In this document: piece after piece, positions 645 through 59,747 of the stretch | Layout of the letters: each line of letters begins with the position of its first letter | Position numbering within the stretch: the stretch's first letter is position 1 | DNA from: Cephalotus follicularis | Taxonomy: Eukaryota > Streptophyta > Magnoliopsida > Oxalidales > Cephalotaceae | Length of the DNA: 64,000 nucleotides | NCBI GenBank assembly: GCA_001972305.1 | Contig: BDDD01001389.1 | Span: 108,017 to 172,016, forward strand | Direction: 5' to 3' | Position numbers and translations under genes: made by a program | The notes under the pieces: generated by a model | Seen by the model: only the letters and a program-made list of their open reading frames with translations | The model's database searches: none | Told to the model about the DNA's origin: nothing

Positions 645-797
645 CGCATCGATGTCTTTGGAAAGACGTCGACGCCTATGGAACCGAGATACACGTGAAT
701 GCATGGGCATGCACGTCGACGTAGGGTGAAGACATCGACACCTTCTGGTGAAAGAGTAAAAGACATCGACGTCTAAGGAAAGACGTCGACGCCGTTG
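645..797 (+). repeat. Class 2 TCGA palindrome array, B1 array I
   Basis: Repeated GACRTCGACGYC-type palindromes. Two adjacent pairs have TCGA cores exactly 20 bp apart (near 650/670 and 765/785), with further copies near 715 and 745. It lies about 170-330 bp from the LTR start, where B2, B3 and B4 carry class 1 arrays. Confidence 0.85.
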
Positions 798-1550
798 TAA
801 AGAACATATGTCACGTTATACACTGACAGAGTAACATTCAATGGGTGATGTTTGAGGCATCATCTAGACGCCTTGAGGCACGGGTAGGAGACGTGTTGAT
901 CATGCACAATGGCCTCCTGACCTGCATGACTGAAGAAAGGTGAAGTAGGTAACAAGTGTTACCATGCATGGAACCTGCAAAAGAAAAGAGGAGAAGAAAA
1001 CAAAAGGGAAGGCAGAGTTCTGGGAAAGAGGGAGAGAACACGAGAGTGTTCATTGAATGCAAGGAGAAAGAGGATGGGGGAGCCATCTGCATAAGAACAA
1101 CCCCCTCCCCACCTCTCTCTCTCATTTAAAACACCAAAGGAAAGGAAGAGGAGAAAACCAGTGAGTGTGAGGAAGAGAGAGCCACCATTGTTGAGCTTGA
1201 TTGGAGCTAGAACTTAGAGCTCGTGGGTAGCAGTTGCTGAAAGGATCTTGGAGCTGCTGTGGCCAGAACCTGGGAACTCAAAGAGGTGGACTTACAAGGT
1301 TTCTAACTTGAAACCAGAGGTAGGGGAAAGTGATAATCTTATACATGCATTTTGGGTTTTAGGTTAATGAATACCATTGATGATTTGCATGTTAATGGGT
1401 GAATTGTGATTCTGGACTTGTTGTGATGACTAATGTAATGTACGGAGTGAACATACATGTGCAAATTACATGGATATGTGAATTGGTTTATGTATGGATG
1501 ATTTTGATGATGGCTTGCTGTGTTATAACTATGGAGAAAACGTTCTGGGT

Positions 1551-1650
1551 TGGATAAACGTCGACGTCTACCTGAAGACGTCGATGTCTTCGTGTTCGTA
1601 TGAAAAAGATATCGATGTTTGAGTAAAAGCATCGACGCCTTTTCTGGGTA
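1551..1650 (+). repeat. Class 2 TCGA palindrome array, B1 array II, first part
   Basis: Contains ACGTCGACGTC and GACGTCGATGTC with cores 20 bp apart, then two more spaced copies. It is bracketed by TTCTGGG at about 1543 and again at about 1642, a flank also seen beside arrays in other families. Confidence 0.82.
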
Positions 1651-1857
1651 ATCATAGAACTGTAATGTTTACGGCAGATGGCAATTTAGTCACTTGGGAT
1701 TACATGTTTGATTACGAATTAACGTTCTGGTTACATACTTTGATAACCAGTAGCTTTTCTTACGCCTTGAGAGGTTAAGTTTCGCTTATAGGAGGATTTA
1801 GGGGCTAGATTCTTCCCTCCAGAATCCAGACTCGTGAACTGATACCTCCTGGTATCA

Positions 1858-1985
1858 TAAAGACATCGATGTCGTTGGAAAGACATCGACGTCTTTGGTC
1901 CAAAAACACCTGGGAATAACTGTACATGGGATCGACGCCTTAGGGAAAAGACGTCGACGTCCTGGGGATAGACATCGACGCCTAT
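1858..1985 (+). repeat. Class 2 TCGA palindrome array, B1 array II, second part
   Basis: Five GACRTCGAYG-type palindromes. Core-to-core distances read by eye are 20 bp for the first pair and 22 and 21 bp for the last three. Confidence 0.82.
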
Positions 1986-2164
1986 CCTCCTGATCAATGG
2001 AATTTCACTCGAATGGGACCCGCTAGACCCGAAATGACTCTAGAAACGATCTTAGATCCATTCTGAGCATATGTTTGCATTATTATTGTAAATTGCAATA
2101 TGGTTGATTTCTAAAAGTGTTAACCATTTTGAAAAGCTTGCATGATTTTTATAATCATTATTGT

Positions 2165-2396
2165 GCGAAAATGTATATTTGTCAACATATGAATATATAT
2201 ATTTTCGAAATGATTGGGGGAGTATTTTCCAATGAAGGAGAAATGTTTTAAAGGATAGATTATGCAATCAAATGTATTGTGCGAAAATGTATATTTGTCA
2301 ACATATGAATTTATATATTTTCGAAATGATTGGGGGAGTATTTCCAAAGACGGAGAAATGTTTTAAAAGATTGATTATACAATCAAATGTATTGTT
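2165..2396 (+). repeat. 116-bp tandem duplication in LTR B1
   Basis: Two adjacent copies (2165-2280 and 2281-2396), each beginning GCGAAAATGTATATTTGTC and differing at a handful of positions. The duplication lies in the U5-side part of the LTR. The short open frames here arise from the repeated AT-rich sequence and are not genes. Confidence 0.9.
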
Positions 2397-3117
2397 TTAA
2401 GTTTTATAACTTATCACAACTTGTGAACGGAGTAATATATTTTAAACAAATATATGTGATCAAGTAATCATATTTTATTTCTTGACTTGTACTGTGCAAT
2501 GCTTGTGCCCGTTGATTACTCAGCCGCTGTGCTAGTAACTTGATGTTGGTTTAGCCGCCGTGCTAAGCAACATACGGAGGACTTGCTCCAAAACCGTTCG
2601 CAAACGGGGATGGGGTAAGAGTGCATGACGTTGGGGCCAGGAGGTGGCGACGGTTATGACGACTTGTTTGTCTGGTTCCTTTTGGGACATACTTGTTGCT
2701 TGTGTTGATATAACTTATGAGGTTATACTTGTACTGTGAATGCACATATTTTTATATGTATATACGGAGATATAATTATTGTGAAAAATCACATGTCATA
2801 CTGCATCATAATGCATTCATTCATGATACTCATTATCATATACCTCGAACTGTATTTATAAGTTTATTCACTTAGCCGAGTGAGGACAAAGGCTAACCCC
2901 TACTGTAACAGATTGATGCAGTGGGTTTTGATATGGAGCATGCAAGGAGACTTAAGGAGAAGACTAAGCTATTTCTCTTATTTCTTGTACTGAATAATGA
3001 ACAATGACTATGTAATCGGATTATTGTAACATGGGTTATTTGTTATCTCGTACTGTATTTTCGCGCTCCGTTTTTGGGCGATCGACAATGATGTTGGGTT
3101 TTATATAAACTTGTTGG

Positions 3118-3145
3118 GCATCACGTAGTATGGGATGCGTGATGC
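3118..3145 (+). other. Conserved LTR hairpin, B1 copy
   Basis: A perfect 8-bp stem (GCATCACG/CGTGATGC) around the 12-nt loop TAGTATGGGATG, about 140 bp before the LTR end. The loop is nearly invariant in all five Gypsy-B LTRs while the stem sequence varies. Confidence 0.75.
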
Positions 3146-3292
3146 AATATTTAAATTCAGCTTTTATATGAATGCTTCCGCTAACGAGAAATTTATTTAT
3201 TGGTAAATTTGCATGAGCTGGATTATTTTATGTTGATTGCCTTACCACTTTATATGTTGTCTTAATATGGAAAAACGGGGTGTGACACCCTG

Positions 3293-6273: not shown

Positions 6274-7163
6274 ACGTAGGCGTGTCCAAGTGCTAAAACA
6301 TAGCCACCCTTTGCGGTGCCCAACACCGACGTTGACATAATATTCCCAAGTCATCAGCCTCAGCTAGGGCATGACAAACCAACAACCCAGAAACACTACT
6401 CAACAAAAATTGTGGAAGGCCACGGGGAACCACTCCACGGGTTCCTACGTTAGGACTTATTATTGAAGTGAGGGAATTTGTGGTCCTAAGTTTTAAATAC
6501 CATGCCATTAATTAATTCATTGGTTGTATTAGCCAATTCCAATTAATTACGGCTTATCATGCAAGACGTTTATCTTATGCACCTTGGATATATTTCTAAA
6601 ATATGTCAATGGATTGGCAAGGACAATATTAGTATTAACTTGAGCCCAAAGTCACTACTAGGTCTTCCTAGGTGTAAAGATTTAAATCTATTTATTACAA
6701 CAATAACCATGCATACATGGCCTTCAAAAGTCTTGTACTCCATTTCTCCTTTCTGCCATCTCTCCTTGAAAGGTCTTCTTTTACATAAAAGTAGTTTACA
6801 TTTTTCAAAGAAAAATTACATTTAAAAATTACAAGGAGAAATAACAAAAGTAAGAAAAAATAAATGGTGCACGCAGGCACCTTATTACAGACCTTTAAAA
6901 ATAATAAATAAATCCATCCACACAAAGAAAACCATAAACTAGGTCTATGTCCTTTTCCGGGCCATCCATTGTGCATAAGACTTATATAATATCCAATATT
7001 ATAAAACACAAATAAAACAAATACCATAAATAATAACCAATCAAACAATTTAATTTAAGGATTGTTAACTGATCAAACACCCATTAAATCAAGCAATGAT
7101 TTTTGATTTTCTAAGTGTCAAAATGTATAAAATCCAATTTTATTAAAAACAGTTTTTTTAAGA

Positions 7164-7411
7164 CATCGACGCCTTTCAAAAAGCGTCGATGGATTTCATG
7201 AAAACTGTTGAAAAAAAAAGGCATCGATGCATAACACAAGCATCGATGCATTTCACAAGAACTATTGAAAAAGGCATCGACGTGTATCAACAACATCGAC
7301 GCGTTTCACGAAAACATGAACAAGACATCGACGTCTATCAAGAACGTCGACGTGTTTCCTGGGAACATGAACAAGACATCGACGTCTATCAAGAACATCG
7401 ATGTCTTTAAC
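7164..7411. repeat. Class 2 TCGA array as a ~52-bp higher-order repeat, C1 leader
   Basis: Ten RTCGAY palindromes arranged in five pairs. Within a pair the cores are about 19-21 bp apart; pairs repeat every 50-59 bp with a shared spacer resembling GAACATGAACAAGACATCGA. The last two units are nearly identical. The array lies directly inside the primer-binding-site end of the leader. Confidence 0.85.
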
Positions 7412-7688
7412 CCCCTGGGCAGTTTTTGCATTTCAAAAATGCAGAAAATAATGGTTTAGACTTTGGCATTCCAATCTGGCAATCCAAACTGCACTATGCA
7501 TGTTCGAAACATAATTCTAAACACATTATATCAAATTCACCAGGTCAAAAACACAATGAAATCCAATTTCATGCAATTTTCACTAAGGCACTTTGAAAAT
7601 CTAGTTTGATCATAAAACACATCCATTAATTAAACCATTAATCAGTTCATTATATAAGGCATAAATTCAATCAAGGATGATGAGGGAC

Positions 7689-7700
7689 TCTCTAATACCA
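7689..7700 (-). other. Primer-binding site of copia C1
   Basis: On the minus strand reads TGGTATTAGAGA, one base inside the LTR. It matches the initiator Met tRNA 3' end (canonical TGGTATCAGAG) except for one C-to-T change. It fixes the orientation of the element. Confidence 0.85.
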
Positions 7701-7701
7701 C

Positions 7702-8999
7702 TGCTGGAAACGGATAAACCGAATCTGGAGCCTAAGATGGACAAAGGCATATAGGGTGTAGAACAAAACAAAACATACAATCATGGCAGCGGAATAACAC
7801 CCAATTAAAATAAAAAATAGTCCATAAGGCATGTCCACAGACCACATGGATCACCACATCATCAACAGAATTGAATTAGTGTCACCATATCAAACAATGG
7901 TAACACACAAGCATGGCAAGAAGAGAAGGACCAAGATATATATCAGTGGGTGAAGGCTCCTTCTTTCTTTGCCGCTACACGCTTGAGTAGATTCCCTCTT
8001 TAATCTTCTCCAAGTCTCTGGAACAACAAGCAATCCAACCAGCAATAACCAAGAACAAAGTGTATGAACTCTCTCTCTCTCACTAAGCTTAGAAAAGGTA
8101 AATTGATATTGACCAATGAAGTCAATAATCAAACCACCCTAGATAAGCTCTTGCTTGGTGTATCACAGATGAAAGGAACACACTATGCAGAGAGTAAATC
8201 GAAGTCATTTGCCCAGCAAAAACTCTAACTTTTTTCTTCGCCCCATTTTCTGCAGAAAATGCTTATTACTAGCCCTCATATTCTCTCTCCCACTCTCCCA
8301 TTCACTTAAGATCATGGTCCTCACACCAACAGAGTCTGTGGCCATGATCCCCACGTTCCCATAACATGCAAGAACAGGAGATGGATGCTGGATATGAGAG
8401 AAAACATGCCCACGAAGTGAGCTCGTGCACAGGTTGCACGTTCTGCTCAAAGACGTCGACGTCTTCCAAAGGACATCGACGCCCATGCAATGTGGCACTA
8501 AAACATCGACGCTTTCTAAAAGACATCGACCTCTTTAAAAATGTTAAGCATCGACGTCGTTCTAAAAGACATCGATGTCTTTGTCTGGCCAGTGAAGCAT
8601 TAAGCGTCTAACTCTTTTAGTGATCTCATGTACCCTTCGAATATTGGTTAAGTAAGATCAAACATATGTGTTTCCACAAAATGCAAAATACACATAACCG
8701 ATATTTGACACCAAGACTTAATATGTCCAACATATTAAAGATCTAATCATTATAAGGCAGGGACCCTTTAAAAAGGTAACCAGTCTCACAGCCTCCATGC
8801 CAGGCATCCAACCTTATGTCAGAGCATCACTAGTATAAGTAGGTAATTAATAAACTACTTCAATTATGTGATAAAATACAAGTGATATGTCCATAACATA
8901 TTTAGCACGCATCATATATAAGGAATAAGATTGTTTCATACAATAACAGATATAAAATGAAAGTTCATCCAATGGCTTGTCGGGTCACTATATCTAACA
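7702..8999 (-). mobile_element. 5' LTR of copia C1, internally deleted
   Basis: 1298 bp. On the minus strand it starts TGTTAGATATAG and ends CCAGCA just before the primer-binding site. Compared with C3 it lacks about 870 bp: after GGGACCCTTTAAAA near 8770 it jumps to the block beginning AGGTAACCAGTCTCAC, which in C3 lies about 880 bp further on. It carries a class 2 TCGA array. Confidence 0.85.
8450..8583. repeat. Class 2 TCGA palindrome array in the C1 LTR
   Basis: Six ACRTCGACG/ATG palindromes in three pairs; core spacings are 20, 20 and 21 bp within pairs. It is the copia counterpart of the arrays in Gypsy-B LTRs. Confidence 0.85.
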
Positions 9000-13148: not shown

Positions 13149-13294
13149 TGTAATAACCACAAATTCAATTCATGTATTTTGTAACCAATGATGAATAAAA
13201 TATGAAATTACTTGAATTTTTAATGTCCAACTGTTATATGAAGTGTCATTATGGTTTTAAGTGTGGGAATAAGTTTATGTAGCTAAAACCAGCC

Positions 13295-13428
13295 TCAAAC
13301 AGCTGACTGTCACAGGGTAACAGTCGACTGTCTAGTTTATGGAGGGACAACCAACTGTCTCAGGGGAACAGTCGACTGGTTAATGTGCGAGGTGGACAGT
13401 CGACTGCCAAGTATATACAGTCGACTGG
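13295..13428 (+). repeat. Class 1 TCGA palindrome array, B2 array I
   Basis: Six sites: four intact CAGTCGACTG-type palindromes and two decayed ones (AGCTGACTG, CAACTGTC). It lies about 150-280 bp from the LTR start, matching array I of B1, B3 and B4. Confidence 0.87.
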
Positions 13429-14283
13429 TATGGCACAGGACAAGTGTTTATGCATGCGTGAAACAGAGCAGAGACAATGATGACAAGTGTTCTAATCGTG
13501 GCATACATGAGGGATACGTGTCACCAACTACCTTAACATGCAAGGGTGGTGTCTTGCGTGTGCTCTATTCCTCCCGCAACCTGCAAACAGAAGATTGGAA
13601 GGAGGGAAAGTGGATGGAAGTAAGGAACATGTGTGAGAGAGAAAAGATATGGCTGAGTTAATGTAATCTAACAAGTTCTAAGGCCCCTAAGCCTCTATAT
13701 CAGCTGTTAGAATAGAGTGTGAGCGTTAGAAAACACTAAGGATAGAGGAGATCTTGCTGGAATTCTTGAAGATTGCATGTTGAAAGTTGGAGTTGCAAAG
13801 GGGGTTGAAGCTTCAATCTTCCTGGTAAGTCACCAATCCGAGTCTGCTGATGTTGATGATGTAACTAGGGGAATGTTAGCTATATATATCTTCTGTTAAC
13901 ATGATTAAGGTTAATAAGTTTGGAATTGAAATAGAATTGGTAAAGGGTTCAAAGAAGAAGTTGAACTAGGAACTAATAATGATAAGCTACTATTGGAACT
14001 AGTTTTGACTAGGTAATTAGTTAAATGTACTGGTTAAATATCTGAACCTTCGAACATGCAATGGTATAGATCAATTCTGCTGAGATTGGAAGATTGAATT
14101 GGTGGAAGAGCTTTGGACATTAAAGAGAGAAATCAATCCAAATTGATTTCGGGATAGCGATTAAGGTAGGGGTATTGACATGTTTTCGAAGATATAATGT
14201 GCATATCATGTGTGGATAATTTCCTGCTTGATTGCATGAGTTGCTAAGTTAGTATTTTGGACATTGAACATGCATAACTGTCA

Positions 14284-14425
14284 CTGCCTATCGATTTTCT
14301 GGGCAAAGTAGTTGACTGTTCTCCATGACAGTCGACTACTCAATCAAACCAGTCGACTGTTAAGAACAAACAGTCGACTACAAAATCAAAACGCCGACTG
14401 TTCTTGGAAACAGTCGACTGTCCTG
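14284..14425 (+). repeat. Class 1 TCGA palindrome array, B2 array II
   Basis: Six copies of the (C)AGTCGACT motif, two of them decayed. Consecutive distances counted over the last five are 21, 21, 20 and 20 bp. TTTTCTGGGCAAAG lies just before the array. Confidence 0.88.
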
Positions 14426-15567
14426 AGATAAATTTCTGATAGAGGTACTGTTTAGGCCTTAAATGAATGTAAATACCCTGGCCTCCACATGGGATGATTG
14501 TCACAGTCAATCCTGGCCTTATATAATTACATTTGAGGAATTAAACAACGTATGCACTCCATGTGAGAGTTGCGCAAGAACGACTATGGTATGCTAATGA
14601 CCTTATGAATCCTTTATTGCTACTGTCCTTTACTATTTTGCTGCTTATGCTACTGTTACAATTAGTATATACTAGTTTGGGTTTTCATAAACACTATTCT
14701 TCCCTACCTTTCAAAGGATTGAACCAACTAGTGCTATAATCACAAATATCAATTTTTCTTCTTATTGTTTCAAAACGAAAATTGGTTATCAAATGAAGTA
14801 CTGATTTTCCTCCAATGAGAGGTACTGTTACTGTACTGAATACCGTTTCCTCCAACGAGAGGTACGGCCACTGAACTGTAAAATTGTTTCTAAAGAGAAC
14901 AACTTTTATATTTCATACTATTGATATATGTAATATTTCTATTGAATTGATTTAATTGATGGTCTATGTTATTGCCATTAGTCAAGTGATAGAAGACATC
15001 ACTGGCTACGGGGGGGTCCTATGTGCCACGAGTTGGCTAGAGCTTCCACCACACTTATCTGCAATGCAGATTCTGATTGTTACCTGCCCGCTAATTGCCG
15101 GCAGAATTGACCTGATCTATCATCTTCGGAGTGTAGGGTGATAGTTAGGTGGTGCACAGTTGGTGCTAGGAGTTAGTAACATGTGACATCCAAACCACTG
15201 TATTGATTGATTTTGCCCTTGTGCGGTATTCCTGAATTGTACAGTCTATGGTCACTTGACATGAGTGCTTATATATTGGAATACTTAAATATGTTATTTT
15301 TTTATAATATAAAATATCATACATGTTGCATTTATATATTCCTTATCATGCATTATTCCTACTTAGCCAAGTGAGAACAACGGCTAACCCCCTACAATTT
15401 CAGATTAAGTGAAGGCGTTCGGAGAAGTGCGGCTGAAGCTTATTGGAGAGCTTCTATTTTGTTAAGGTTGTTATTCGTTATGTTTTGTATTGAAATGAAT
15501 GTTCGCACTCCGTTGTTTTTGTTTACTTTCCTTATGTAAAAGAATAATTTTAATTGGTTTTCTATGA

Positions 15568-15589
15568 GCACGTAGTATGGGCTGCGTGC
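15568..15589 (+). other. Conserved LTR hairpin, B2 copy
   Basis: A 5-bp stem GCACG/CGTGC around the loop TAGTATGGGCTG (one change from the B1 loop), about 131 bp before the LTR end. Confidence 0.7.
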
Positions 15590-16200
15590 GGGTAACCTTA
15601 TAATCCGGCAATTGGAATGCTTCCGCTTATTTATGAATGTTGTTTAACAATTGAATGCTGGATTATTATTTATGTCTGATATCACCACATATGATTGTCT
15701 TAATGGAATAACGGGGTGTGGCATATATCTGGTGATGTGGTCTTTTCTTTCTTTAGTTTCAGTAGATTGAGAGAGTTTTAGAGTGTGAGAGAGAGAGTTC
15801 TAGTTCTTCTTCTTCTTCTTCATCGACGAGCGGGAGGAGAACAGTAGTTTGAAGCTTTCCAAGCGTAGCGGAGAAGCAGCCAGGCGCAGTAGCTGACGAG
15901 GAGATAGAGGAGAAGTTCTCGTCAGAGCAAGTCAGTAAGAACGTAGCCAAGAACTGTGAGTGGGACATCCTTTCTATGTTTCTAGTTGTTCATGATGTTC
16001 TTGATTGATGTTTCTTGATAACTCTTTCAGTTTTCATTTCAGTACAGTGAGAGCTTTCTAACGGGAAGTTGTTTCCCTAGCTTCCTTGTAGGTTTCCCTT
16101 GACAGAAGAGAGAAAAAGAGAGTTCTCTAGTACTAGAGCTCAAGTTCTTCAAGTGAACTAGTCACTTTCCAGTAATGTAACGCGTACATGCTCAAACCAA

Positions 16201-19589: not shown

Positions 19590-21150
19590 TCTCAATATGC
19601 CCAGCATTCTCCCTTAAAAAACTGACCCGTTTTTTGTAGATAAATCTTTTCACCAGTCTCATTTCCCATGCTCCCACTATCCCATACACTTAGGATCATG
19701 ATGCTAACTCCAAGGAAGGATGAAGCCATGATCCCCACGTGTACACATCATGCATGGACGGGAGAAAATGGCTGGAGAAGAGAGAGAAAACGTGCCCATG
19801 ATGTGTGTGTTCATGCACAGTTTGCATGTCGCACAGAAAGCGTCGACGCCTTCGAAGAAAGCGTTGACACTTATACAATAATGTACTAAACGTCGACGTC
19901 TTTCTAAAAGACATTGACGCCTATCCATACGTTAAGCGTTGTCGCTTCCCAGAAGGTGTCGACGCTTTGACTGGCAGGTTGAGCAAAATGAATATAAGTC
20001 CAACTTATTTTATTCCTTCTAATATTGATTAAGTAAGATCAAGCAAACGTGTTCCCACAGGATGAAAAATCCACATAACCGATATTTGATTTTATAAATC
20101 TCACCAAGACTTAATATGTCAAACATATTAAGGAACTAATCATTATTGGCCAGGGACCCTATAAAATCTTGGTTAAACTCGAAGGTGTTCATAAATTACC
20201 GAAATACCTGTAGGGTCTGGTTTAGCCATTCTAAATAGTCCTAGAAAAATTTAAATGCTCTTGGAATAATATCTAATATTATCCAGATGGAAAAATTAAT
20301 CTAATTAATTTTCCCATAATTTATTACACACCACTTTAACCCTAGATTTTCTAAGTCGTCGGTTCACGTATACTCTAATCCCTTGTCATAGTTGGCCCCG
20401 ATTGAGGCCTATGGTAAGGATACGTGTCAACCCTAGATAAAACCTCAATATCTAAAATTTCTAATTATTACTAGGACCTTTGGCAGATTCTCCAAAAATC
20501 TAATTTCCAATCTACTTCAACCTTGGCCGAGGATTTCATAAGTCCAAAGTATAATCAGACCATAATGTGGTCGATCACCTTTGCTCAGGCGTGACAGACC
20601 CTTCTTGTGCACTCATTTATATTCGTATAGATTCGATCATACCGAAAGATCACTAGATTGCCAGTCCTGCACAAGAATTGGGTAAGGTGGAGATCAAAGC
20701 ATAACCGTCTCCATACAATATAGAGCAGTCGCTCAGGTCTAAGGATCAGATGAGTTCAAGAACTCACTAAGTGACTAATACTTATACACAACCGCCACAA
20801 GTAGGAGTCACTACTGACACGAGAATAGCGACTATCCAAACAGTGTCTCCTACGCAGGTCCAGTTCAGTGTACACGCTCCCAATGCGCTCCTTGTATTTG
20901 GCCTAGTGTCCAACACAGATGGTAGTGAGAGAATCCATCCCCCAATTCCATTAGCAGGCAACATACGCGCAAGTCTATCCCGTTCACTAATGCCCACAAA
21001 GTGAACCTACGACTTCGAACTAATTCGACATAAGGAATAAGGTAACCAATCTCACAACCTCCATGCTAGGCATCCAATCTTATGTCAGGACATCACAAGC
21101 ATAAGTAGGCAAATAATAAACTACTTCAATTAAGTGATAAAACACAAGTA
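19590..21150 (-). mobile_element. Copia C3 LTR, both ends truncated
   Basis: Aligns with the C1 and C2 LTRs (blocks AATATGCCCAGCATT, TAAGTAAGATCAAGCAAA, AACCGATATTTGATTTTA, CAAGACTTAATATGTC). It keeps about 870 bp (20160-21040) that C1 lacks, so it is the fuller representative. The LTR end near the primer-binding site (about 500 bp) and the first 100 or more bp at the other end are missing. At 21150/21151 it fuses directly to C2 integrase. Short open frames here are not genes. Confidence 0.82.
19845..19970. repeat. Class 2 TCGA palindrome array in the C3 LTR
   Basis: Six GCGTCGACGC/ACGTCGACGT-like sites, three decayed to TTGAC or TTGTC. Counted spacings within the first two pairs are both 21 bp. 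Orthologous to the arrays in C1 (8450) and C2 (35299). Confidence 0.82.
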
Positions 21151-24052: not shown

Positions 24053-24206
24053 GCAGTCGACTGGTACGTTTGACTAGCCGGCTGGGTGTTTGTGTCTTGG
24101 AACAGTCGACTAGTGGGATGAACCAGTCGACTGGCCAACTGTCGACCCACGTGGTAACGAACTGCCAGACGAGCAGCCGGCTGTTGGGTGTGGACAGCCG
24201 ACTGGA
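24053..24206 (+). repeat. Class 1 TCGA palindrome array, B3 array I
   Basis: CAGTCGACTG palindromes mixed with CCGGCTG and GCCGACTG derivatives, about 176-330 bp from the LTR start. Confidence 0.84.
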
Positions 24207-25019: not shown

Positions 25020-25325
25020 TTCGCGGGGCAGCCGACTATCGAAGGAAGACATCCGACTGTCGAAGGAAGACATCCGACTACTCAATGGAACCAGTCGACT
25101 ATCAATGGAAAGCAGTTGACTGTTCATACTTCATCCTGCCCAGAAAGTGGCGGGAAGCGTGATCTGGGTAATACTTTTGAATGGGTGTGCAGTAACAGTC
25201 GACTGTTGAAGGATAACAGCTGACTGCCTAATGGACAGTCGACTGGTAGAAGGAACCATCCGACTATCCAGTACTGCTCGACCCAAAACAGCCGACTGGT
25301 AAGGATTCCAGCCGACTGGTTGGAC
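25020..25325 (+). repeat. Class 1 TCGA palindrome array, B3 array II
   Basis: Two sub-clusters (25028-25115 and 25196-25322) of AGTCGACT and CCGACTG variants. Several have decayed to CATCCGACT. Distances are mostly close to 20-22 bp. A CCTGCCCAGAAAG block, the reverse complement of the TTCTGGGCAG flank, separates the two. Confidence 0.82.
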
Positions 25326-28660: not shown

Positions 28661-28912
28661 NNNNNNNNNNNNNNNNNNNNNNNNNNNNNNNNNNNNNNNN
28701 NNNNNNNNNNNNNNNNNNNNNNNNNNNNNNNNNNNNNNNNNNNNNNNNNNNNNNNNNNNNNNNNNNNNNNNNNNNNNNNNNNNNNNNNNNNNNNNNNNNN
28801 NNNNNNNNNNNNNNNNNNNNNNNNNNNNNNNNNNNNNNNNNNNNNNNNNNNNNNNNNNNNNNNNNNNNNNNNNNNNNNNNNNNNNNNNNNNNNNNNNNNN
28901 NNNNNNNNNNNN
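28661..28912. other. Assembly gap (252 N)
   Basis: A run of N between the E 3' LTR and the E internal region. Its true size is unknown. It hides the start of the 3' LTR and most of the internal region, so open frames crossing it are meaningless. Confidence 0.99.
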
Positions 28913-37284: not shown

Positions 37285-37610
37285 AGACGAGATAAGCATC
37301 GGCGCTTTCAAGCTTTGTTCTTTAAAGAGCGTCGACAGTTTAACCTCAAAGCGTTGCCGCTTTCCCACTAAGCGTCACCGGATGAGCGCTTTTAACAAAT
37401 GAAATAAGTCTTAAACCGTCGAAGAAAAAGGAAATAAGCGTCATTGGTTTAAACGGATAAGCGTCACCGCTTTCCTACCATGCTATAACAAACCGTCGAT
37501 GCTTAAGCTAATAAGTTTGGTGTCTTTTGGGGTACAAAATTAGTCGACACTTTGTGTACACTAAAGACTAACCACCGACGCTTTAGAATTAGATAGTCGA
37601 CACTTTCAAT
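37285..37610. repeat. Degenerate class 2 TCGA array in the D LTR
   Basis: Around a dozen sites resembling AAGCGTCGACGCTT, most with one or two changes (GCGTCACCGCTT, ACCGTCGATGC, TAGTCGACAC). Spacing is less regular than in the other arrays. Confidence 0.65.
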
Positions 37611-40446: not shown

Positions 40447-43115
40447 TGTAATACCCTGTTTGTCCGTGTGCATAATTTTGGACTTTTAATATGTTTTGCT
40501 TTGTAGCCTGTCTACTTTATGTTGGGTTCATGAGTTTGGGCTGACTGATACTAGCCTTGATTTTGGGTACGTTAAGATGTGTTTATGTACTAGTAAAGTT
40601 TATTTTATTTATCTACAAAAATAAATTAATTTTTAAAAAAATCAAAATCCATTTATTTTTATTTCCTTTTATCTCTCTCTCTCTCTATCTCTCCCGCATA
40701 TCCCTCCCATTTTCCTTCTTCTTCTCCTCAAAATCTTCCCATTTTCCTTATCTAATCTGATTGTGTTTCCTCTTTTCCTAATCCTACCCGAAATTCTTGC
40801 CCCTTTTTGTTTAAGTAAACTGTCAACCCACCCTTTATGCCATCGTTTCTCCTTCGTTTGGTTGCTGCCATTTCTGCAAGTTGAGAACTCATTGTGCTCT
40901 CCATGTATTTGCATCAAGTTAGGTTTGTTCTCCATGGTTAAGTGTAGGAATCGTTTCATTTTGATATGTATGGCGTTAACAATTTTTTTTGAATCCGTAT
41001 GTTTTCTCTCCCTTTTGGTTTCTGTGAACAGCCGTGTTTAAGCTTGATAATTCAGTGTTCTCCTACAGCTTGTGTCGCCATTACAGGTAAGTGTTATTGC
41101 TCTGCTCTGATGGTAATTGTTAGCATTGCCATGGATCCGTTTTGCATGCCTTCATAGGTGTTAGAATTCGGTTTTGGTCATTGTCAGTTATGCTCTATCA
41201 TTTAATTTCTGAGTCTGTTGGTAAGCCTTTAGACATCTAGTAAGGGTTGTGTAATCTGATTTGGATATATGACAATGTTAACTTGACAGAACTGGTTTAT
41301 GAATAAGTATACAATGGTTTGAATATACCACTTACCTTAAATTAATCACTGTCAACATATCTCTCTTAAATTTAGTGTTATGTTACTATTTTAAATACCA
41401 TATAGAGTCCTTTTAAGGGTTTGTGGCCTTCTGGTTTTGAGTTATCCAAGTTTTGGCAGCAAGATTGCTTAAAACTGTCATAGTTTGCTGTTCTGTCGCC
41501 TAGAACAGTTGGCTTTCTATGTGATCAGTCGGCTGTTTCTCTTTGAGTAGTCGGCTGTCTTGTGCAACAGTCGACTGTTTTCTGTTGAGTAGTCGACTGG
41601 ACCCCTGTCACAGTCAATTGTCTGTAGTTCAGTTTGTGTAGTCGACCGGCCCTGTTGTGTAGTCGACTACCACCCTTCGACAGTCGACTGGAGCCCTGTA
41701 TCAGTCGGCTGGATTGTCCTGTAAATTCCTATATTCATATTCTATTATCCGTTTGTTCGTCCGTTGAACCTGGGTCTGTTCTAAACACCATTATAATTCT
41801 GATTTATACCCACGATGATTTTCAGAATCTTATAAGAATGTTTTATATATTATATAGATTATTGTGCTACATGAGCCAGTTAGAATTAATCTGTCTATTC
41901 GTAAGATATTCTGTGATCACATAAGGTACGGATTTTCTGCTCATCGATACTCTCTTCGATTTTATCGAGATAAATCCTGTTTTATGAATATGACACTTTT
42001 GGTTTTATGAACTTTGTTATGCTCCGTATCTTGATATGTTTCGAACTGAAGTCAGTTTGATATTTTTTGAAAATGAATATTTCCTAACTTTTCAATTCAG
42101 CTGTGATATGTTTACGAAATGTTATGCCATCGTCTCTTTATTGTGAAAATAAATGAATTGAATTCTGATTATGAAAGTATATGTTATGAGAAATTATATC
42201 GTTTGAGAACGATTTATGAATATGTGTTGGAAAAACCTTTCTATGTGTTTAAATTGATAAAATCAATGTTTTGAAATGGTGAAATACTGAGCTTTTGTAC
42301 CCACCTATGGGACGTACCATAGGCATGTCGTAGGCCTGACACGAGGACATGACACTTTCCGTAACGGTTTGATTAGTTTATGGTGTCTCTCTGTGATATC
42401 CTTGGATAGGATTTGTGATATAGGCGTATGGATCGATCCTAGTTATATGATATGTGGTATGTTATGATATGGGAATTGTTTGTGCAGTGCCGTACACTTC
42501 AATTCTATTTAGCAATGTGGATGTCGTGAATCCCTTACTTCTATGTGTTTCTGCTATGTGATATGTTATGATGCTCAGTTATGGAACCTTATGTTTTCAA
42601 AAGGTATGCTTATGAAAGTTATGGATTTGGTTTATACGAAAATGCTGAGGCAATATATAAAGAATGTTTATCCTTATTACTACTTAGGATTTCTGTTTTG
42701 AAGGAACCTTTGAAATCTTACTACTTGAAATTTATCGTTTACTGTTTTTACATTCTATATTCGTACTAAGGTTTGCTCAGCCGCATTTTGTTTTTCATGC
42801 GACAGGTTATCAGGAGCATCGGGGCAATGTGTGATGAGATTGTTCACCTAAATTGAGGATCATCTAGGAGATTGATCCCACTATGCTATGATGTCTTATG
42901 GTCATATTGGGACTGGTCTTATGAACATTATGATAGTTTCAGTTATGTCTTTTGGTTTATGTTTAAGTTTTCAGACTATTTTTTAGTTTCATCTATGTTA
43001 TCAGTTTATGTTTCTGACCATCACGTTTTAATAAAGTTTAGCTTGATAAGCTATTATATTTTGTTAAGTTATGTTATGTGTCCTGTAAGGGCTCCCACCT
43101 TTTGGGGGTGTTACA
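40447..43115 (+). mobile_element. 5' LTR of gypsy A2
   Basis: 2669 bp, TGTAATACCC...GGGGGTGTTACA. A CT-rich zone lies near 40670-40700, a strong donor-like CAG/GTAAGT at 41087, a class 1 TCGA array at 41500-41712, and hairpins CGCAT...ATGCG (near 42783) and GGATCA...TGATCC (42858-42879) in the U5-side part. Short open frames inside it are not conserved as proteins. Confidence 0.92.
41500..41712 (+). repeat. Class 1 TCGA palindrome array in the A2 5' LTR
   Basis: Ten sites (GTCGACTG, GTCGGCTG and one GTCAATTG). Consecutive distances counted by eye: 20, 22, 20, 22, 21, 28, 21, 21 and 21 bp. It is the most regular array in the window. The single 28-bp interval is shared with A1. Confidence 0.92.
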
Positions 43116-47669: not shown

Positions 47670-47841
47670 TGTAATAACCGCAACTTCAATTAATGTATAT
47701 TGACCCAAGATTGAAATAAAATATACATTTTAATTGAGTTATTTGTCCAATTATACTAATTTTTATGATTGGTAATTACTTGGGATGATTTGATATGCAA
47801 TTGGAGAAGTATCAAAGACTAGGAAACCCTAATCTAGCCAA

Positions 47842-47925
47842 ACAGCCGACTGTCACAGGGCAACAGTCGACTGTTTGCCACGTGAAGAAGGCAGTCGACT
47901 GCCCACTAATTCCAGTCGACTGGTT
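47842..47925 (+). repeat. Class 1 TCGA palindrome array, B4 array I
   Basis: Four sites (GCCGACTGT, CAGTCGACTG, CAGTCGACTG, CAGTCGACTGG) about 173-255 bp from the LTR start. Confidence 0.88.
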
Positions 47926-49085
47926 TGCTCCAGGACAGATTCCTGGCATGTGCAGGGACAAGAAGGACAGCTGGGATAATGGCACTTATGTCTCACCACC
48001 TGCCAGAACATGCAAAAGTGAATGTTTGCATGTTCTCTACAGACCACCAAACTGCAATTTGATTAATTAAGAGAGAAAGTGGAAGTGAGGGAGGCATGTG
48101 GTGGAAAGAATGAAAGAAAATGTGAGTGAATGTGAGTAGGTAACAAATCTGACGAATTCAGAGGTCCTTGAGAGTTATATCTACTGATGGACTGTTGTTT
48201 GAGTGTTAGAAACACTAAGTAAAGAGAGGAACCATTGAAAGCTTGCATTGGTAGGATTGGAGAAAACTCAAAGAAGGAACTTTGAAGTTTAGAATCTTGG
48301 TAAGTCCTTGATCCGAAATTCTTTGTTATTTTGATGATAAAATGACTAGGAAAAATATTGTACATCTTCTGTTAATGGATTGGGATAACAATATTTGGAA
48401 TTGAAATGGAAAGTAATAATGAAATCAAGTAGAATTGGTGATATAGTCACTAGAATGGATTATAATTGTTGTTAATATGCTTAATGACTCCTAAGTATGT
48501 ATATACATACTGTTGAAACATGCAAATCAGTAGATGGATTGAGTAAATTATTTGGAATATGGAGAGTGTTTTAAATGAAACTAGAGACTTAAGAGTTCTA
48601 GTAATTCTTGATGAAACTAGATAATGATTATAGTAATTGAATAGTACATATATACATACTGATTTCATGTATATATCTTCTGTCAAAACAAGTTAAGAAC
48701 AATGAATCGAAGATTAATGATACTTGGCATAGAGTTCAAAGAAGGGAAGTGATAGAATGGTAAAGGAAAGTTAAAGAATTAAGTGGATTAATGATTAAAC
48801 CACTGTATGAGTTATTGACACTTACTGATATTGATACATGTATCCATAAACATGCTTACATAGATTGATATTGCTGAATTGGAAGATTGATTGGTGAAAA
48901 GTGACTTGGGACACAAAGAGAAAGATCATATTCAATTGATCTTGGGATAGCAAATTAAGGTAGGGGTAATGATATGTCATGGAAGATATGAGTATGCATA
49001 TTATGTATGAATATTTTCTGCATGATTACATGTATTGAATTGATTAGGAGTTGAATTACCATTACATGACTTGCTATTTCTACAT

Positions 49086-49180
49086 TTTCTGGGCAGAGGC
49101 AGTCGACTGGCACCCAAAGCAGTCGACTACTCAACCCAACAGTCGACTAGTTCTTCATGGCAGCCGACTGTTCTGGGTAG
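49086..49180 (+). repeat. Class 1 TCGA palindrome array, B4 array II
   Basis: Three CAGTCGACT palindromes and a terminal GCCGACTG, bracketed on both sides by TTCTGGG (49087 and 49171). The bracketing is clearest here. Confidence 0.88.
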
Positions 49181-50327
49181 AAAATTCATACATTGATTGA
49201 ATTGTTAATGTTTGTTATTGTTATTGAATTGTATATGCTACCACCATTTAGTATATACTATTTGATGTTATTTAACATCACTACTACTTGTATTACAATG
49301 ATCGAACGAATTATGTACTATATGCACAATGCATGGTTTTAAACACCATTTTCAAGTAAGAACTCTTATTGCAAGAAATTATTGATTTATGAAAGTGTTA
49401 CCGAATGTGCTACTGTCACATTATTATAAACTGTTTTGGTGTCATTTATCACCACCACCACTGTATTTCAATGATTGAAACCAACTATGGACTATGTATC
49501 CAATTTATGAAATCAAACTATCATTTTCAAGTGAATGAATATTGCCAAATAAACTACTGATTTTACTCCTATATGAGAGGTACTTACTGTTTTGTTTCCC
49601 AAATTGGAAACAACTATTTAAGGGATGTCGTTTTCCTCCAAGAGAGAGGTACGATAAGTGAAGTGTTATAGTTTATAAAGAAAATTACTTTCTATTGCAT
49701 ATTGATGATATATGTAATATTATTCTTGAAATGATTGTATTGATTGTGTATGAGTGCCGTGGTTTGGTGACGGAGGTTGTCACTGACTACGGGTATGTGA
49801 TTCTGAGTGCCAGGAGTTGGCCAGAACATCACCTAAGTGTGTTTGCAGTGTTAAACTACCCGCCAACGCCGGTAGTAAGTGTTACCTTACCTATCAGCTT
49901 CGGAGCGTAGGGTGATAGATAGGTGGTGCACAGTTAGTGCTAGGAGTTAGCGACATGTGACACCCAAGTGAGTGTTGAATTGATTGTACCCTTGTGGGTA
50001 TCCTTGAATATGGATTGTTTATGGCCACTTGGCATGATTGCTTATATATTGGCTCATTCAAATATTAATTTGATATAAACTGTCATACATGTTGCATTCA
50101 TATACTCCTTATCATACATTATCATTCTATTTAGCCAAGTGAGGACTACGGCTAACCCCTACAATTTCATATTAAGCTAGGACATTTGGAGACTGCTGCT
50201 GAAGCTTGGAGAGCTTCTTATTTTGATTTAAGGTTGATTAATTATGATGTTGTACTGTAAATTGTATTTGAACGGTTCATACCTCGTAGTGTTGTATATT
50301 CTTCTTTAAGGATAATTGTGGTTTTAC

Positions 50328-50353
50328 CCGCACGTAGTATGGGATGCGTGCGG
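50328..50353 (+). other. Conserved LTR hairpin, B4 copy
   Basis: A perfect 7-bp stem CCGCACG/CGTGCGG around the loop TAGTATGGGATG, about 150 bp before the LTR end. The stem sequence differs from B1, B3 and B5, yet pairing is complete. Confidence 0.75.
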
Positions 50354-50508
50354 ATGGCTTATTTTTATATTCCGGCTTATCGAATGCTTCCGCAAATTTA
50401 ATTATGACTATTAATTGAAATGCTGGAATATTATTTTATGCTTATTTCTGATATCACCACATATGCTGGTCCATTGTACGTGAACCGAAAAACGGGGTGT
50501 GACAAGCA

Positions 50509-50520
50509 TGGTATCAGAGC
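50509..50520 (+). other. Primer-binding site of gypsy B4
   Basis: TGGTATCAGAGC four bases after the LTR; a full match to the initiator Met tRNA type. Confidence 0.92.
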
Positions 50521-52912: not shown

Positions 52913-52940
52913 GTAACATGCATCCCATACTAGATGCTAC
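52913..52940 (-). other. Conserved LTR hairpin, B5 copy
   Basis: On the minus strand the stem GTAGCATC/CATGTTAC pairs at seven of eight positions including one G-U, around the loop TAGTATGGGATG, about 145 bp before the LTR end. Confidence 0.7.
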
Positions 52941-54245: not shown

Positions 54246-54324
54246 GATTATGCAGATAGTACAGGGAAACAGCAGCAAAACAAAGCCACAACTCACAACA
54301 ATCCATTCTAACACACAACGATTC

Positions 54325-54427
54325 ATAGCGTCGACATTTTCTCTAAGTGTCGACATTTATCGCGAATCAGGACTCATTCTCCATATGACAATCTATAGCG
54401 TCGACGCTTCTTTCCTAAGCGTCGACG
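54325..54427. repeat. Class 2 TCGA palindrome array in B5
   Basis: Two pairs (GCGTCGACATT/GTGTCGACATT and GCGTCGACGCTT/GCGTCGACGGTT) with cores 19 and 21 bp apart. Confidence 0.86.
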
Positions 54428-56091: not shown

Positions 56092-56303
56092 CAGAATAGT
56101 GGGCTATCTATGTGATCAGTCGGCTATTTCTCTTTGAGTAGTCGGCTTTCTTGTGCAACAGTCGACTATTTTTTGTTGAGTAGTCGACTGGACCCCTGTC
56201 ACAGTCGACTGTCTGCAGTCCAGTTTGTGTAGTCGACCAGCCCTGTTGTGTAGTAGACTTCCACCCTTTGACAGTCGACTGGAGCCCTGTATCAGTCGGC
56301 TGG
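56092..56303 (+). repeat. Class 1 TCGA palindrome array in A3
   Basis: Ten sites corresponding one-to-one with the A2 array (41500-41712), with a few changes at the motifs (GTAGACTT, GTCGACTA). Confidence 0.9.
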
Positions 56304-57032
56304 ATTGCCCTATAAATTCCTATATTCATATTCTATTATCCATTTGTTCGTCCGTTGAACCTGGGTCTGATTTAAACACCGTTATAATTCTGATTTATAC
56401 CCACGATGATTTTCAGATTCTTATAAGAATGTTTTACATATTATATAGCTTATTGTGCTATGTGGGACAGTTAGAATTAATTGGTCTATTCGTAAGATAT
56501 TCTGTGATCGCATAAGGTATGGATTTTCTGCTCATTGATACTCTCTTCGATTTTATCGAGATAAATCCAGTTTTATGAATATGACACTTTTGGTTTTATG
56601 AACTATGTTATGCTCCGTATTTTGATATGTTTCGAAATGAACTCAGTTTGATATTTTTATGAAATTGAATATTTCTTGGCTTTTCAATTCAACTGCGATA
56701 TGTTTACGAAATTTTATGCCATCGTCTCTTTATTGTGAAAATAAATTAATTGAATTCCGATTATGAAAGTATATGTTATGAGAAATTATATCGTTTGAGG
56801 ACGATTTATGAATATGTGTTGGAAAAACCTTTCTATGTGTTTAAATTGATAAAATCAATGTTTTGAAATGGTGAAATACTGAGCTTTTTGTACCCACCTA
56901 TGGGGCGTACCGTAGGCATGTCGTAGGCCTGGCACAGGGACATGACACTTTCCGTAACTGTGTGATTCGTTTACGGTATCTCTCTGTGATATCCTTGGAT
57001 AGGATTTATGATAGAGGCGTATGGATCGATCC

Positions 57033-59747
57033 TGTAACACCCCCGAGATGTGGGAGCCCTTACAGGTCATAATACAGAAACTTAACATAAAATAACATAA
57101 TAGAAAGACTTAGCTTTATTAAAATTGTGATGGTTTAAAACATAACTAATAACATACTGAAACTAATCAAAATCTGGAAACTTATTCAAAAGCAAATGTC
57201 ATAAACTGAAACTAACATATTGTTCATAAAAACAGGCCCTACTACGACCATATGATAGTATAAACACAGTGGGATCAACTCCTCGATGATCCTCATACAT
57301 AACGGAGTCAAGTCTCATCACACATTGCCCCGTTGCTCCTGATAACCTGGCGCATGAAACAAAAATGCGACTGAGCAAACCTCAGTACGAATATAGAATG
57401 TAAAAACAATAAATGATACTTTAATGCAGTAAGATTTCAAAAGTACTTCAAACAGAAATCTTAGGCAATAAAACAGTTTAAATATTCGTTGCGAATGCCC
57501 TCGGCAAAAACATATAAACCAATTTCATAGCTTTGAAAACATAAAGCATACCTTTCCAAAACATAAGTTCCATAACTGAGCATCATAACATATCACATAT
57601 CAGAAACACATATAGCAAGGGATTCGCGACATCCACATTGCCAACAGAATTGAAGTGTACAGCACTACACAAACAATTCCCATATCATAACATATCACAT
57701 AACATATAACTAGGATCGATCAATATGCCTCTATCACAAATCCTATCCAAGGATATCACAGAGAGACGCCGTAAACTAATCACACCGTTACGGAAAGCGT
57801 CATGTCCCCGTGCAGGGCCTACAACAAGCCTATAGTACGCCCCATAGGTGGATACAAAAGCTCAGTATTTCACCATTTCAAAACATTGATTTTATCATAA
57901 TCAATTTAAACATATAGACAGGTTTTTTGAAACATATCTAAAAATCGTTATCAAACAATATAAACATATACCTTCAAAGTCGGAAAATCAACTCGTTTAA
58001 TTCACCATAAAAGAGATGATTGCATAGCATTTCATAAACAAATCATAACTGAGCATATATAAAGTCGGAACATTTAATTTCGTAAAAAATGTTAAAACTG
58101 ACTTTAGTTCCAGAACGTGTCAAAACCCAAAACATAACAAAGTTCATAAAATCCAAAGGGACATACTCATGAAACTGGGTTTATTTCAAATAAATCAGTT
58201 GTTCAGAAACGAGTGCCAAAGAGCAGAATATCCGTACCTTATGCGATCACATATTAGCGTACGAATAATCTGATAAATTCTAATTATCCCACGAAGCCCA
58301 ATAATCTATACAATATAACAACATTCATATAAGGGTCTAAAAATCATTTTAGGCATGAATCATAATCATAATGATGTTTAAAACTGACCCGGATTCATCA
58401 GAAGAACAAACGGATAAGAGAATATAAAAACATGAATTTACAAGACAATCCAGCCGACTGATACAAGACTCTAGTCGACTGTCCAAAGGGTGGCAGTCGA
58501 CTACACAACGAGGCCAGCCGATTGCACAAACCGAAATGCAGGCAGTCGATTGTGACAGGGGTCCAATCGACTGTGCAAAACAAAACAGTCGACAGTTGTG
58601 TAAGACAGCCGACTACCCAAACGAAACAACCGACTGTTCATGTAGGCAGTCGACTGTTCTGGGTGATAGAATAGCAGACTATGATAGTTTTGTGAAATCT
58701 TGCTGCCAAAAGTCGGATTACTCAATGCTAGAAGACTACCAACACTTAAAATGACACTGTATGGTATGTAAAATGATAACGTAACACTGAATTCGAAAGA
58801 GATACATTGACAATGTTTAACTTAAGGTGAGTGGTATATCCAAACCATTGTATACTTATTCACAAACTGATTATGTCAAGTTACCACTATCATATATCCA
58901 AACCAGATTGTACAACACCTTCTAGACATCTACAGGCTTACCAACAGATTCAGAATCTTAAATGACAAGGCATAACTGACAAGGACCAAAACCGAATTCT
59001 AACACCTATGTAAACATATAAAACGGATTCATGGCAATACCAACAATTTCCATCACAACAAAGCAACAAAACTAACCTGCAATGGCGACACAAGCTGTAG
59101 GAGAACACAGAATTATCAAGCCTAAACACGGGTGTTCACAGAAAACAAAAGAAGAGAAAACATACGGTTCAAGGATTGCCAAAGGTAAACATATTAACTT
59201 ACAACAATTCCTACTCTTAACCATGGAGAAACAAACCTGATTGATGAAGCAATTGATCGAAGAACACAGAGGATTCCCGAATTCACAAAGTGGGCTATCA
59301 CAACCAATGAAAACTGATGGTGTAGAAACGGTGACCCAAGCCTTCTTAAACTGAAGAAAAAGGCAAGAATTTGGGTGGGATAACGAAACAAGAGACATAA
59401 TCTGAATGGATAAGGAAAAGGAGAGAAAAATCAGGAGATGGAATTGGAAGGTGGAGTGATTTCGGATGAGGGAGTTAAGAGAGGGAGAAGTATATGGGAG
59501 AGATAAGAGGAAGAGATAAAAGGAAAGAAATAAAGCAGATAAAGGGATTTTATTTTAAAAACAAATTGTAAAAGCATATTAAATATAATTGATTTATATG
59601 TATATATAATAACATAAACTTTTCCAAAACCATACACATATTAACATACCCAAAATCAAGGGTGGTATCAGTCAGCCCAAATCATAAACCCAACATAAAG
59701 TAGGCAACTACTTATCAAAAAAGAGAAAAAGCCCAAAAATACGTACA
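57033..59747 (-). mobile_element. 3' LTR of gypsy A4
   Basis: About 2715 bp. On the minus strand it ends CCCGGGGGTG-like (CTCGGGGGTGTTACA), as in A2. At the other end it starts TGTACGTATT, which aligns about 22 bases inside the A2 LTR start; the first bases and the polypurine tract are missing. It has the donor-like GCAG/GTTAGT (59076 downward), a class 1 array, and the CGCAT...ATGCG and GGATCA...TGATCC hairpins. Confidence 0.85.
58451..58680. repeat. Class 1 TCGA palindrome array in A4
   Basis: About ten sites (CAGTCGACTG, CAGCCGACTG, CAGTCGATTG and others), mostly 20-22 bp apart, the last one running into TTCTGGGTG. Orthologous to the arrays in A1, A2 and A3. Confidence 0.88.

Follow-up and report, generated by a model that had tools for sequence, protein, structure and literature searches.

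Palindrome arrays in Ty3-type and copia LTRs

The window, a 64,000-nucleotide stretch of the Cephalotus follicularis genome, contains Ty3-type and copia retrotransposon sequences carrying clusters of short palindromes centred on TCGA (Table 1). Elements A and X were assigned to Ty3 by their retropepsin, RT and integrase matches; a chromodomain match in element A is weak (E 0.002, below the curated cut-off). Approximately 40 bp separate the pol frame of element A from its 3' LTR, and the other elements are truncated. The solo LTR D is placed on the plus strand by 3'-end homology to LTR A and by an R/U5 marker word at 3122, and a minus orientation for the arrays at 400–2500 was rejected on these grounds. 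Judged by position, it seems to lie within a copia pol, and the one adjoining frame tested gave no Pfam match. An array matching that of the copia C1 leader, with identical first offsets, is present in L023. A pol search gave relatives in Tanacetum, other Asteraceae, Apium, Vitis, Cucumis and others, with 47–82% identity among the best 120 of 7975.

Table 1. LTRs, primer-binding sites and palindrome arrays in the window.
Feature	Position	Strand	Remarks
LTR D, Ty3-type solo LTR	472..3287	+	TGTAACG...GTGTGACA; 5-bp duplication CCCTG on both sides
LTR D array P1	646..797	+	class 2, 5 sites
LTR D array P2	1558..1640	+	class 2, 3 sites
LTR D array P3	1861..1983	+	class 2, 4 sites; marker offset equals that of array P2 in A and A2
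Copia C1 leader array	7163..7445	-	class 2, 10 sites; between primer-binding site and gag
Copia C1 primer-binding site	7689..7700	-	TGGTATTAGAGA
Copia C1 LTR array	8450..8582	-	class 2, 5 sites; upstream of primer-binding site
LTR A, Ty3 3' LTR	13149..15723	+	purine tract on the 5' side
LTR A array P1	13304..13430	+	class 1; distances 48, 28, 21
LTR A array P2	14306..14421	+	class 1; distances 21, 21, 40
Array in copia-LTR fragment	19840..19899		class 2; related to C1 and 35057–35790
Array	24054..24146		class 1
Array	25092..25245		class 1
Array in copia leader-like stretch	26965..27070	-	class 2; related to C1
Array in X-related LTR copy	31431..31574	-	class 1; pieces ~70% identical
Copia LTR array	35320..35450	-	class 2, partly decayed; primer-binding site at 34534 (-)
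Two sites	37416..37502		class 2
LTR X, second Ty3 LTR type	40447..43115	+	TGTAATACCC...GGTGTTACA; primer-binding site at 43121
LTR X array	41506..41711	+	class 1, ten sites (20, 22, 20, 22, 21, 28, 21, 21, 21), five with GTCGAC
LTR A2, A-type LTR	47670..50504	+	primer-binding site at 50509
LTR A2 array P1	47850..47925	+	class 1; distances 28, 21
LTR A2 array P2	49098..49170	+	class 1; distances 20, 20, then a decayed site
Sites in mixed-dialect LTR J54	54330..54426	-	class 2; marker word, 3 mismatches, at 52936 (-)
Array in second X-type LTR copy	56159..56282	+	class 1; LTR copy 93% identical to X
Array in LTR Y, X-type	58472..58656	-	class 1; LTR 78% identical to X

The initial annotation had proposed at least 20 such clusters, lying in LTRs and leaders, and our counts agree: 20 clusters in the window have two or more sites. 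TCGA-centred palindromes of at least 8 bp number 76 and those of at least 10 bp number 44, compared with 9–12 and 1–3 respectively in three random sequences with the window's dinucleotide make-up. The enrichment holds genome-wide as well, with 197,377 copies of CAGTCGACTG in the whole 1.58-Gb genome compared with 939 of the reversed control. Among 180 GTCGAC 10-mers the commonest are CAGTCGACTG (45), CAGTCGACTA (30), GCGTCGACGC (15), ACGTCGACGC (11) and ACGTCGACGT (10). The arrays were found in LTRs, and one copia family has a leader array too, 3' of the primer-binding site. GTCGAC occurs at 1.97/kb in LTRs and leaders (43 in 21,789 bp) and at 0.28/kb in coding sequence (3 in 10,893 bp, an incomplete list of ORFs being taken as coding).

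Spacing of the sites

Spacing is far from chance. Of 219,038 GTCGAC pairs separated by 8–38 bp in the whole genome, 105,145 are exactly 21 bp apart. Among 100 pairs listed, 82 lie 19–22 bp apart and 10 form a second peak at 27–28 bp, while four are at 30–33 bp and none at 14–17 or 24–26 bp; a longer-range set of 100 listed pairs (39–69 bp) has 47 at 40–43 bp and 33 at 48–50 bp. When the window is combined with 20 unselected 10-kb stretches, 40 of the 76 distances of up to 60 bp between neighbouring GTCGAC sites fall at 19–22 bp (5.5 expected if uniform), and the pitch of about 19–22 bp noticed initially is borne out. The series of distances first read at 41500–41712 is exactly right, provided that degenerate sites are included, GTCGAC itself being present in five of the ten.

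It was also suggested that successive sites face the same side of the helix. This holds for runs at 20–22 bp but not for whole arrays, which leave helical phase because of the peaks at 27–28, 40–43 and 48–50 bp and some distances of 30–33 bp. A Rayleigh test was dropped as evidence of phasing: it is significant for a period of 7 bp as well as for 10–11 and about 21 bp, as the distances are few and inherited.

Dialects and their distribution among elements

The sites fall into two main dialects, class 1 (CAGTCGACTG) and class 2 (GACRTCGAYGTC). Two Ty3 LTR types have class 1, in part with reversed orientation, and class 2 is common to Ty3 and copia. The classes are kept apart in 50 of 52 clusters, each of which has sites of one class and none of the other; five of these 50 also contain hybrid sites. 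Cluster pairs 250–1700 bp apart agree in dialect in 10 of 12 cases (6.05 expected, P 0.017), a test resting on just these 12 non-independent pairs. Related Ty3 LTRs can differ at matching array positions, LTR D and L013 having class 2 and LTRs A and A2 class 1. The extended word CAGTCGACTACTCAA accounts for 11 of 32 CAGTCGACTA sites: two are sense-oriented in A-type LTRs, and the other nine are antisense in X-type LTRs.

Comparison of copia and gypsy carriers by blastn revealed no similarity between their LTRs outside the arrays, in line with the proposal that arrays are common to both superfamilies in otherwise unrelated LTRs. Grouping by unmasked sequence joins 28 of the 39 clusters by way of the motif; with motifs masked there are 12 groups, which are not taken as a count of independent families since 500-bp flanks in nested DNA may still chain. 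A captured cis-element was among the explanations first offered, and a captured or exchanged module does fit best, both because an extended array word of one Ty3 LTR type reappears inverted in another and because related LTRs differ in dialect at matching positions.

Conservation of motif and spacer

Motif and phase had been said to persist while spacers vary; for the motif this is so between families but not among 20 copies of one family. Flank identity is below 0.70 in 11 of 28 family comparisons. In these, identity is 390/455 in motifs, 387/585 in spacers and 2557/4210 in flanks, and the motif-minus-spacer difference of 0.195 compares with no more than 0.045 across 40 neutral simulations; we note that the comparisons reuse sequences and that the aligner favours motif-on-motif placement, for which simulation controls only partly. 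The motif excess is small where flanks exceed 0.70, and it is reversed, with the motif less conserved, in three of the 28 comparisons. Selection among copies of a single family was tested on 20 copies and not found, the motif (0.845, or 0.863 without the central CG) not exceeding the spacer (0.885) over ten sites. Class 1 spacers hold 0.09–0.42 bits per inner position in 57 pairs at exactly 21 bp, from 84 of 100 listed pairs used. Most listed class 2 spacers are extensions of the palindrome (TCTTT...AAAGA).

These figures bear on one alternative, that the arrays are ordinary minisatellites, in which slippage within LTRs multiplies units of about 21 bp that are then inherited without function. 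The arrays are indeed tandem, with locally coherent site orientation; a 28-bp step recurs across related families, there is no motif excess within the family of 20 copies, and plain tandem duplication would also yield both one-dialect arrays and the shared strand of asymmetry seen in 16 of 23 cases of neighbouring sites. It accounts poorly, however, for class 1 spacers that are nearly unrelated at exactly 21 bp while the motif is kept, for a motif that outlasts its spacer between families despite containing CpG, and for the presence of both words in otherwise dissimilar LTRs, with different dialects at matching positions. We consider the minisatellite explanation unlikely.

RNA folding and genomic RNA

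A further alternative is that palindromes transcribed from LTRs and leaders form hairpins, which would supply small RNAs and silencing. Such a role has been proposed for the LTR palindromes of maize Sireviruses, where a small-RNA excess at palindrome clusters is recounted in passages of PMC10760457. For all 12 array strands tested, folding is more stable than the shuffle mean (z -2.3 to -8.6), and within five regions the mean MFE is -31 to -37 kcal/mol for array windows and -17 to -23 kcal/mol for other windows. Good folding is not independent evidence of hairpins, however, because self-complementary sites in a row are bound to fold well on either strand and the array windows are richer in G+C; moreover, the best single window of LTR D lies outside its arrays (-44.0 vs -38.6). 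Asymmetric neighbours point in the same direction in those 16 of 23 instances, whereas selection for hairpins should produce the opposite, and hairpins that attract silencing should be counter-selected. A hairpin function appears quite improbable.

That the palindromes act in genomic RNA, in dimerisation or packaging, is very hard to credit: the copia leader array does lie between primer-binding site and gag, and the asymmetric C1 sites are by eye mostly G-U-tolerant on the sense strand, but the sites far outnumber the needs of one dimer contact, and the wobble idea drawn from C1 was dropped because LTR D and LTR A array P2 show the opposite, mostly A-C type on the sense strand, leaving no consistent RNA constraint.

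Comparison with known systems

The initial statement that no named element of this sort is known was too strong. The closest known systems are the palindrome boxes of Sirevirus LTRs and the VANC-target arrays. Passages of Bousios et al. 2010 (PMC2829016) describe 8 to 32 palindromic repeated-motif (RM) boxes per Sirevirus element, located in the LTR upstream of the TATA and, in env-bearing elements, also in the linker before env, with a conserved motif, diverged flanks and an unproven function; RM is there termed Sirevirus-specific and missing from classic retrotransposons. The arrays here likewise place many palindrome copies in clusters in the LTR, their GTCGAC core recurs in the Vitis box CGGTCGACCG, and TCGA is the centre of the Tnd-1 box ACAATCGATTGT (PMC2829016). 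They differ in that carriers A and X are Ty3, although the copia carriers could be Sireviruses; in that Ty3 and copia share two dialects in one host; and in having a copia leader array 3' of the primer-binding site. The commonest GTCGAC 10-mers also lack the CGG-CCG signature reported in all 13 Sirevirus RM palindromes but Tnd-1, and their pitch is mostly 19–22 bp, while the passages of PMC2829016 drawn on here state no fixed pitch.

VANC-target arrays of VANDAL DNA transposons (Hosaka et al. 2017, PMC5735166; Sasaki et al. 2023, PMC10398659) are similar in being tandem short non-coding motifs that differ between related elements, as LTR D and L013 differ from A and A2. VANC, an anti-silencing factor whose binding to these arrays goes with loss of methylation, is encoded by the VANDAL element itself, and the string 'palindrom' occurs 0 times in PMC5735166. 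No VANC-like gene was noticed in the elements here.

Our literature search retrieved no paper joining gypsy LTR retrotransposons with GTCGAC palindromes, and a search for the word CAGTCGACTG gave no retrotransposon title among the 20 of 29 matches listed. The heat-responsive LTR of ONSEN/COPIA78 reportedly carries a motif other than GTCGAC arrays. ONSEN is moreover one family with a known inducing condition, whereas the arrays here lie in several families; the title of PMC3907296 presents it as a retrotransposon exploiting the plant heat-stress response.

A candidate cis-regulatory module

On sequence grounds, we favour with some confidence the interpretation that the arrays serve LTR retrotransposons as cis-regulatory modules, in which a dimeric factor would recognise the GTCGAC-centred palindrome specifically at each of a row of binding sites. 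A protein would bind the arrays, adjacent dimers being spaced by roughly two turns of the helix. The factor would probably be host-encoded, since the interval of about 40 bp between pol and the 3' LTR of element A leaves no room there for an extra gene. Binding would benefit the element, either through activation of its LTR or by holding the LTR open, and the module would be orientation-independent and selected on active elements. Gain or exchange of modules seems to occur in either orientation, and dialect appears to change as a set within an element. The interpretation offered at the outset is supported in its cross-superfamily sharing, non-chance spacing and module exchange, and not in strict helical phasing.

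More tentatively, and with considerable doubt, a single trans-acting system, encoded by the host or by an element, may have driven convergent gain and exchange of orientation-independent arrays of about 21-bp pitch across Ty1/copia and Ty3 in a single plant lineage, with dialects that switch throughout an element, like those of the VANC systems in VANDAL DNA transposons. If true, this would be an LTR-retrotransposon counterpart of sequence-specific anti-silencing.

Palindrome rows are known from one other plant retrotransposon group, and here arrays cross group boundaries. Palindromic LTR arrays, Sirevirus-specific in the 2010 description, are thereby extended to Ty3 elements, and a single genome has them in both superfamilies, with sites on the order of 10^5. 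Natural variants that differ in dialect at corresponding LTR positions make it directly testable what reads the arrays, be it an activator, an anti-silencer or the silencing machinery.

Abundance of TCGA-centred palindromes

The window consists of nested retrotransposons, with Ty3 or copia domains in 15 of 20 ORFs by Pfam scan. The clusters of TCGA palindromes reported in the initial annotation stand out from random expectation: the window holds 76 TCGA-centred palindromes of 8 bp or longer and 44 of 10 bp or longer, compared with 9–12 and 1–3 in three random sequences of equal dinucleotide make-up. The excess is also genome-wide. Twenty 10-kb stretches taken without selection (200 kb in all, including 19,839 N) contain GTCGAC 108 times with 14.5 expected, AGTCGACT 49 times (1.3), CGTCGACG 29 (0.25), CAGTCGACTG 24 (0.06) and GCGTCGACGC 13 (0.01), and the whole genome (1,577,397,061 bases, 9746 contigs) has 197,377 copies of CAGTCGACTG compared with 939 of its reversed word. 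The arrays are real and widespread.

Positions of features in the window and, where indicated, in a further sequence stretch (L016)
Feature	Position	Strand	Remarks
Solo LTR D	472–3287	+	Second LTR type; complete; 5-bp duplication CCCTG flanks both sides
Direct repeat, LTR D	2159–2395		94%, offset 116 bp; separate from TCGA arrays
Copia C1 arrays	7163–7445, 8450–8582	-	Class 2
Element A	12880–13107		In-frame stop between integrase piece and weak chromodomain piece
LTR A	13149–15723	+	Second LTR type
GTAAGT words	13825, 41087, 48300	+	Possible 5' splice donors in LTRs A, X and A2, by eye
N run	28661–28912		252 bases
LTR X	40447–43115	+	Ends in GGTGTTACA; primer-binding site at 43121
LTR A2	47670–50504	+	Second LTR type
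A-type pol fragment	51433–51945		Truncated A-like element; adjoins X-type LTR sequence from ~51944
J54 sites	54330–54426	-	Mixed-dialect LTR
Third dialect	L016:2347–2670		Row of GACGTCGACTTC-type sites, dyad-asymmetric, orientation mostly shared

Spacing of sites

Genome-wide, 219,038 GTCGAC pairs lie 8–38 bp apart and 105,145 exactly 21 bp apart, compared with 3939 and 1224 for the reversed control. Among 100 pairs listed at 8–38 bp, 82 are at 19–22, 10 at 27–28 and 4 at 30–33 bp, with none at 14–17 or 24–26 bp; among 100 listed at 39–69 bp, 47 are at 40–43 and 33 at 48–50 bp, roughly 21+21 and 21+28. Both sets come entirely from the beginning of one contig (contig C1). Neighbouring sites had been proposed to face the same side of the helix. 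A distance of two turns between neighbours is confirmed, yet steps of 28 bp (~2.7 turns) also belong to the array design, so that whole arrays do not lie on a single helix face.

Dialects and array positions

LTRs A and D share 3'-end pieces (blastn; 70% over 173 columns and 81% over 54 columns) and most pieces of A and A2 align, whereas neither A nor D gives a blastn match to LTR X outside the arrays. A marker word, CACGTAGTATGGGNTGCGTG, is common to A, A2 and D, with 21,098 copies genome-wide and, allowing up to 3 mismatches, 7 occurrences in the sequences examined. In LTRs A and A2, one class 1 array lies ~160–280 bp into the LTR and another precedes the marker by ~1.2 kb; at both places LTR D and a D-like LTR (on L013) carry class 2 arrays, plus a third array. 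Other marker-bearing sequences have two class 2 sites (L028), mixed dialects (J54) or, within 1.1 kb of sequence, no arrays (L037). Of 16 markers listed on contig C1, 11 are preceded within 3 kb by one of the listed 21-bp pairs, and for 4 of these 11 the distance is 1220–1245 bp. The LTR X array begins ~1.06 kb from the LTR start. In A, X and A2, GTAAGT words found by eye precede the second array by ~420–800 bp, and this array may fall within an intron of an LTR-driven transcript.

In copia element C1, class 2 arrays occur on both sides of the primer-binding site: one upstream of it and one in the leader, 309–541 bp beyond the start of the primer-site match; the first offsets of the leader array on L023 are identical. 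Class 1 occurs in A- and X-type LTRs and class 2 in D and copia, so dialect does not track LTR type. The earlier suggestion that otherwise unrelated copia and gypsy LTRs share these arrays is upheld.

The arrays appear to behave as modules. Class 1 or class 2 sites, never both, occur in 50 of 52 clusters (5 of the 50 also hold hybrid sites), and clusters 250–1700 bp apart agree in dialect in 10 of 12 pairs (6.05 by label shuffling, P 0.017). One word, CAGTCGACTACTCAA, accounting for 11 of 32 CAGTCGACTA sites, has two sense copies in A-type LTRs and nine antisense copies in X-type LTRs, and the array thus has no fixed direction relative to transcription. Such indifference to orientation is more in keeping with an array of sites in DNA than with a structure in RNA. 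RNA hairpins serving as an siRNA source are an unlikely alternative: twelve array strands fold well (z -2.3 to -8.6; MFE of array windows -31 to -37, -17 to -23 elsewhere), but this follows from self-complementarity of the sites, and neighbouring asymmetric sites share orientation in 16 cases and oppose in 7, contrary to hairpin selection.

Conservation of motif and spacer

Motifs were said to persist while spacers diverge. This is not seen among 20 X-family copies (83–100% identity to the query), where mean column identity is 0.845 in motifs (0.863 minus the central CG), 0.885 in spacers, and 0.785 and 0.814 in left and right flanks; with motif columns not above spacers, inserted copies decay without clear protection. 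CpG retention is 0.75 of cells in motifs (10 CpGs) and 0.62 outside (25 CpGs). Between LTRs the claim does hold. Pooling 28 comparisons gives 0.861 for motif, 0.751 for spacer and 0.747 for flank, with motif below spacer in 3; when the pool is restricted to the 11 whose flanks are less than 0.70 identical, a cut-off chosen after viewing the 28 and with sequences reused among the 11, the values are 390/455, 387/585 and 2557/4210. Their motif-minus-spacer difference, 0.195, compares with a maximum of 0.045 in 40 neutral simulations. Our reading is that selection or homogenisation would act on active lineages, with neutral decay thereafter.

Among pairs listed, 57 distinct class 1 pairs at exactly 21 bp have inner spacers of 0.09–0.42 bits per position, mostly differing between pairs at 7–10 of 11 positions. 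For class 2, 11,497 GACRTCGAYGTC pairs lie 6–12 bp apart (45 in the control), and spacers among those listed are mostly TCTTT...AAAGA, so that the spacer is partly motif. The arrays are probably functional, and a factor binding them may activate, protect or silence.

Relation to known arrays

The arrays resemble Sirevirus RM boxes, maize palindromic arrays and VANC-target arrays. The Sirevirus study (PMC2829016) describes 8–32 palindromes per element upstream of the TATA, in some elements also before env, with diverged flanks; the boxes of Vitis, CGGTCGACCG, and Tnd-1, ACAATCGATTGT, resemble the palindromes found here. That study terms RM boxes Sirevirus-specific, its authors being unable to name a binding factor. 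The Ty3 LTR arrays differ in element type and signature and, by these features, are not Sirevirus RM boxes. In maize, according to PMC10760457, a Copia palindrome recurs in Helitrons, most Ty3 elements lacked a clear structure peak, and a cis-regulatory role is considered for palindromic arrays. VANC targets are described in PMC5735166 as co-evolving tandem motif arrays, with VANC6 motifs present in an unrelated element too. No VANC-like gene was noticed in the present material. LTR arrays of this sort are known; what is unusual in Cephalotus is that they cross superfamilies and that dialects differ at matching positions.
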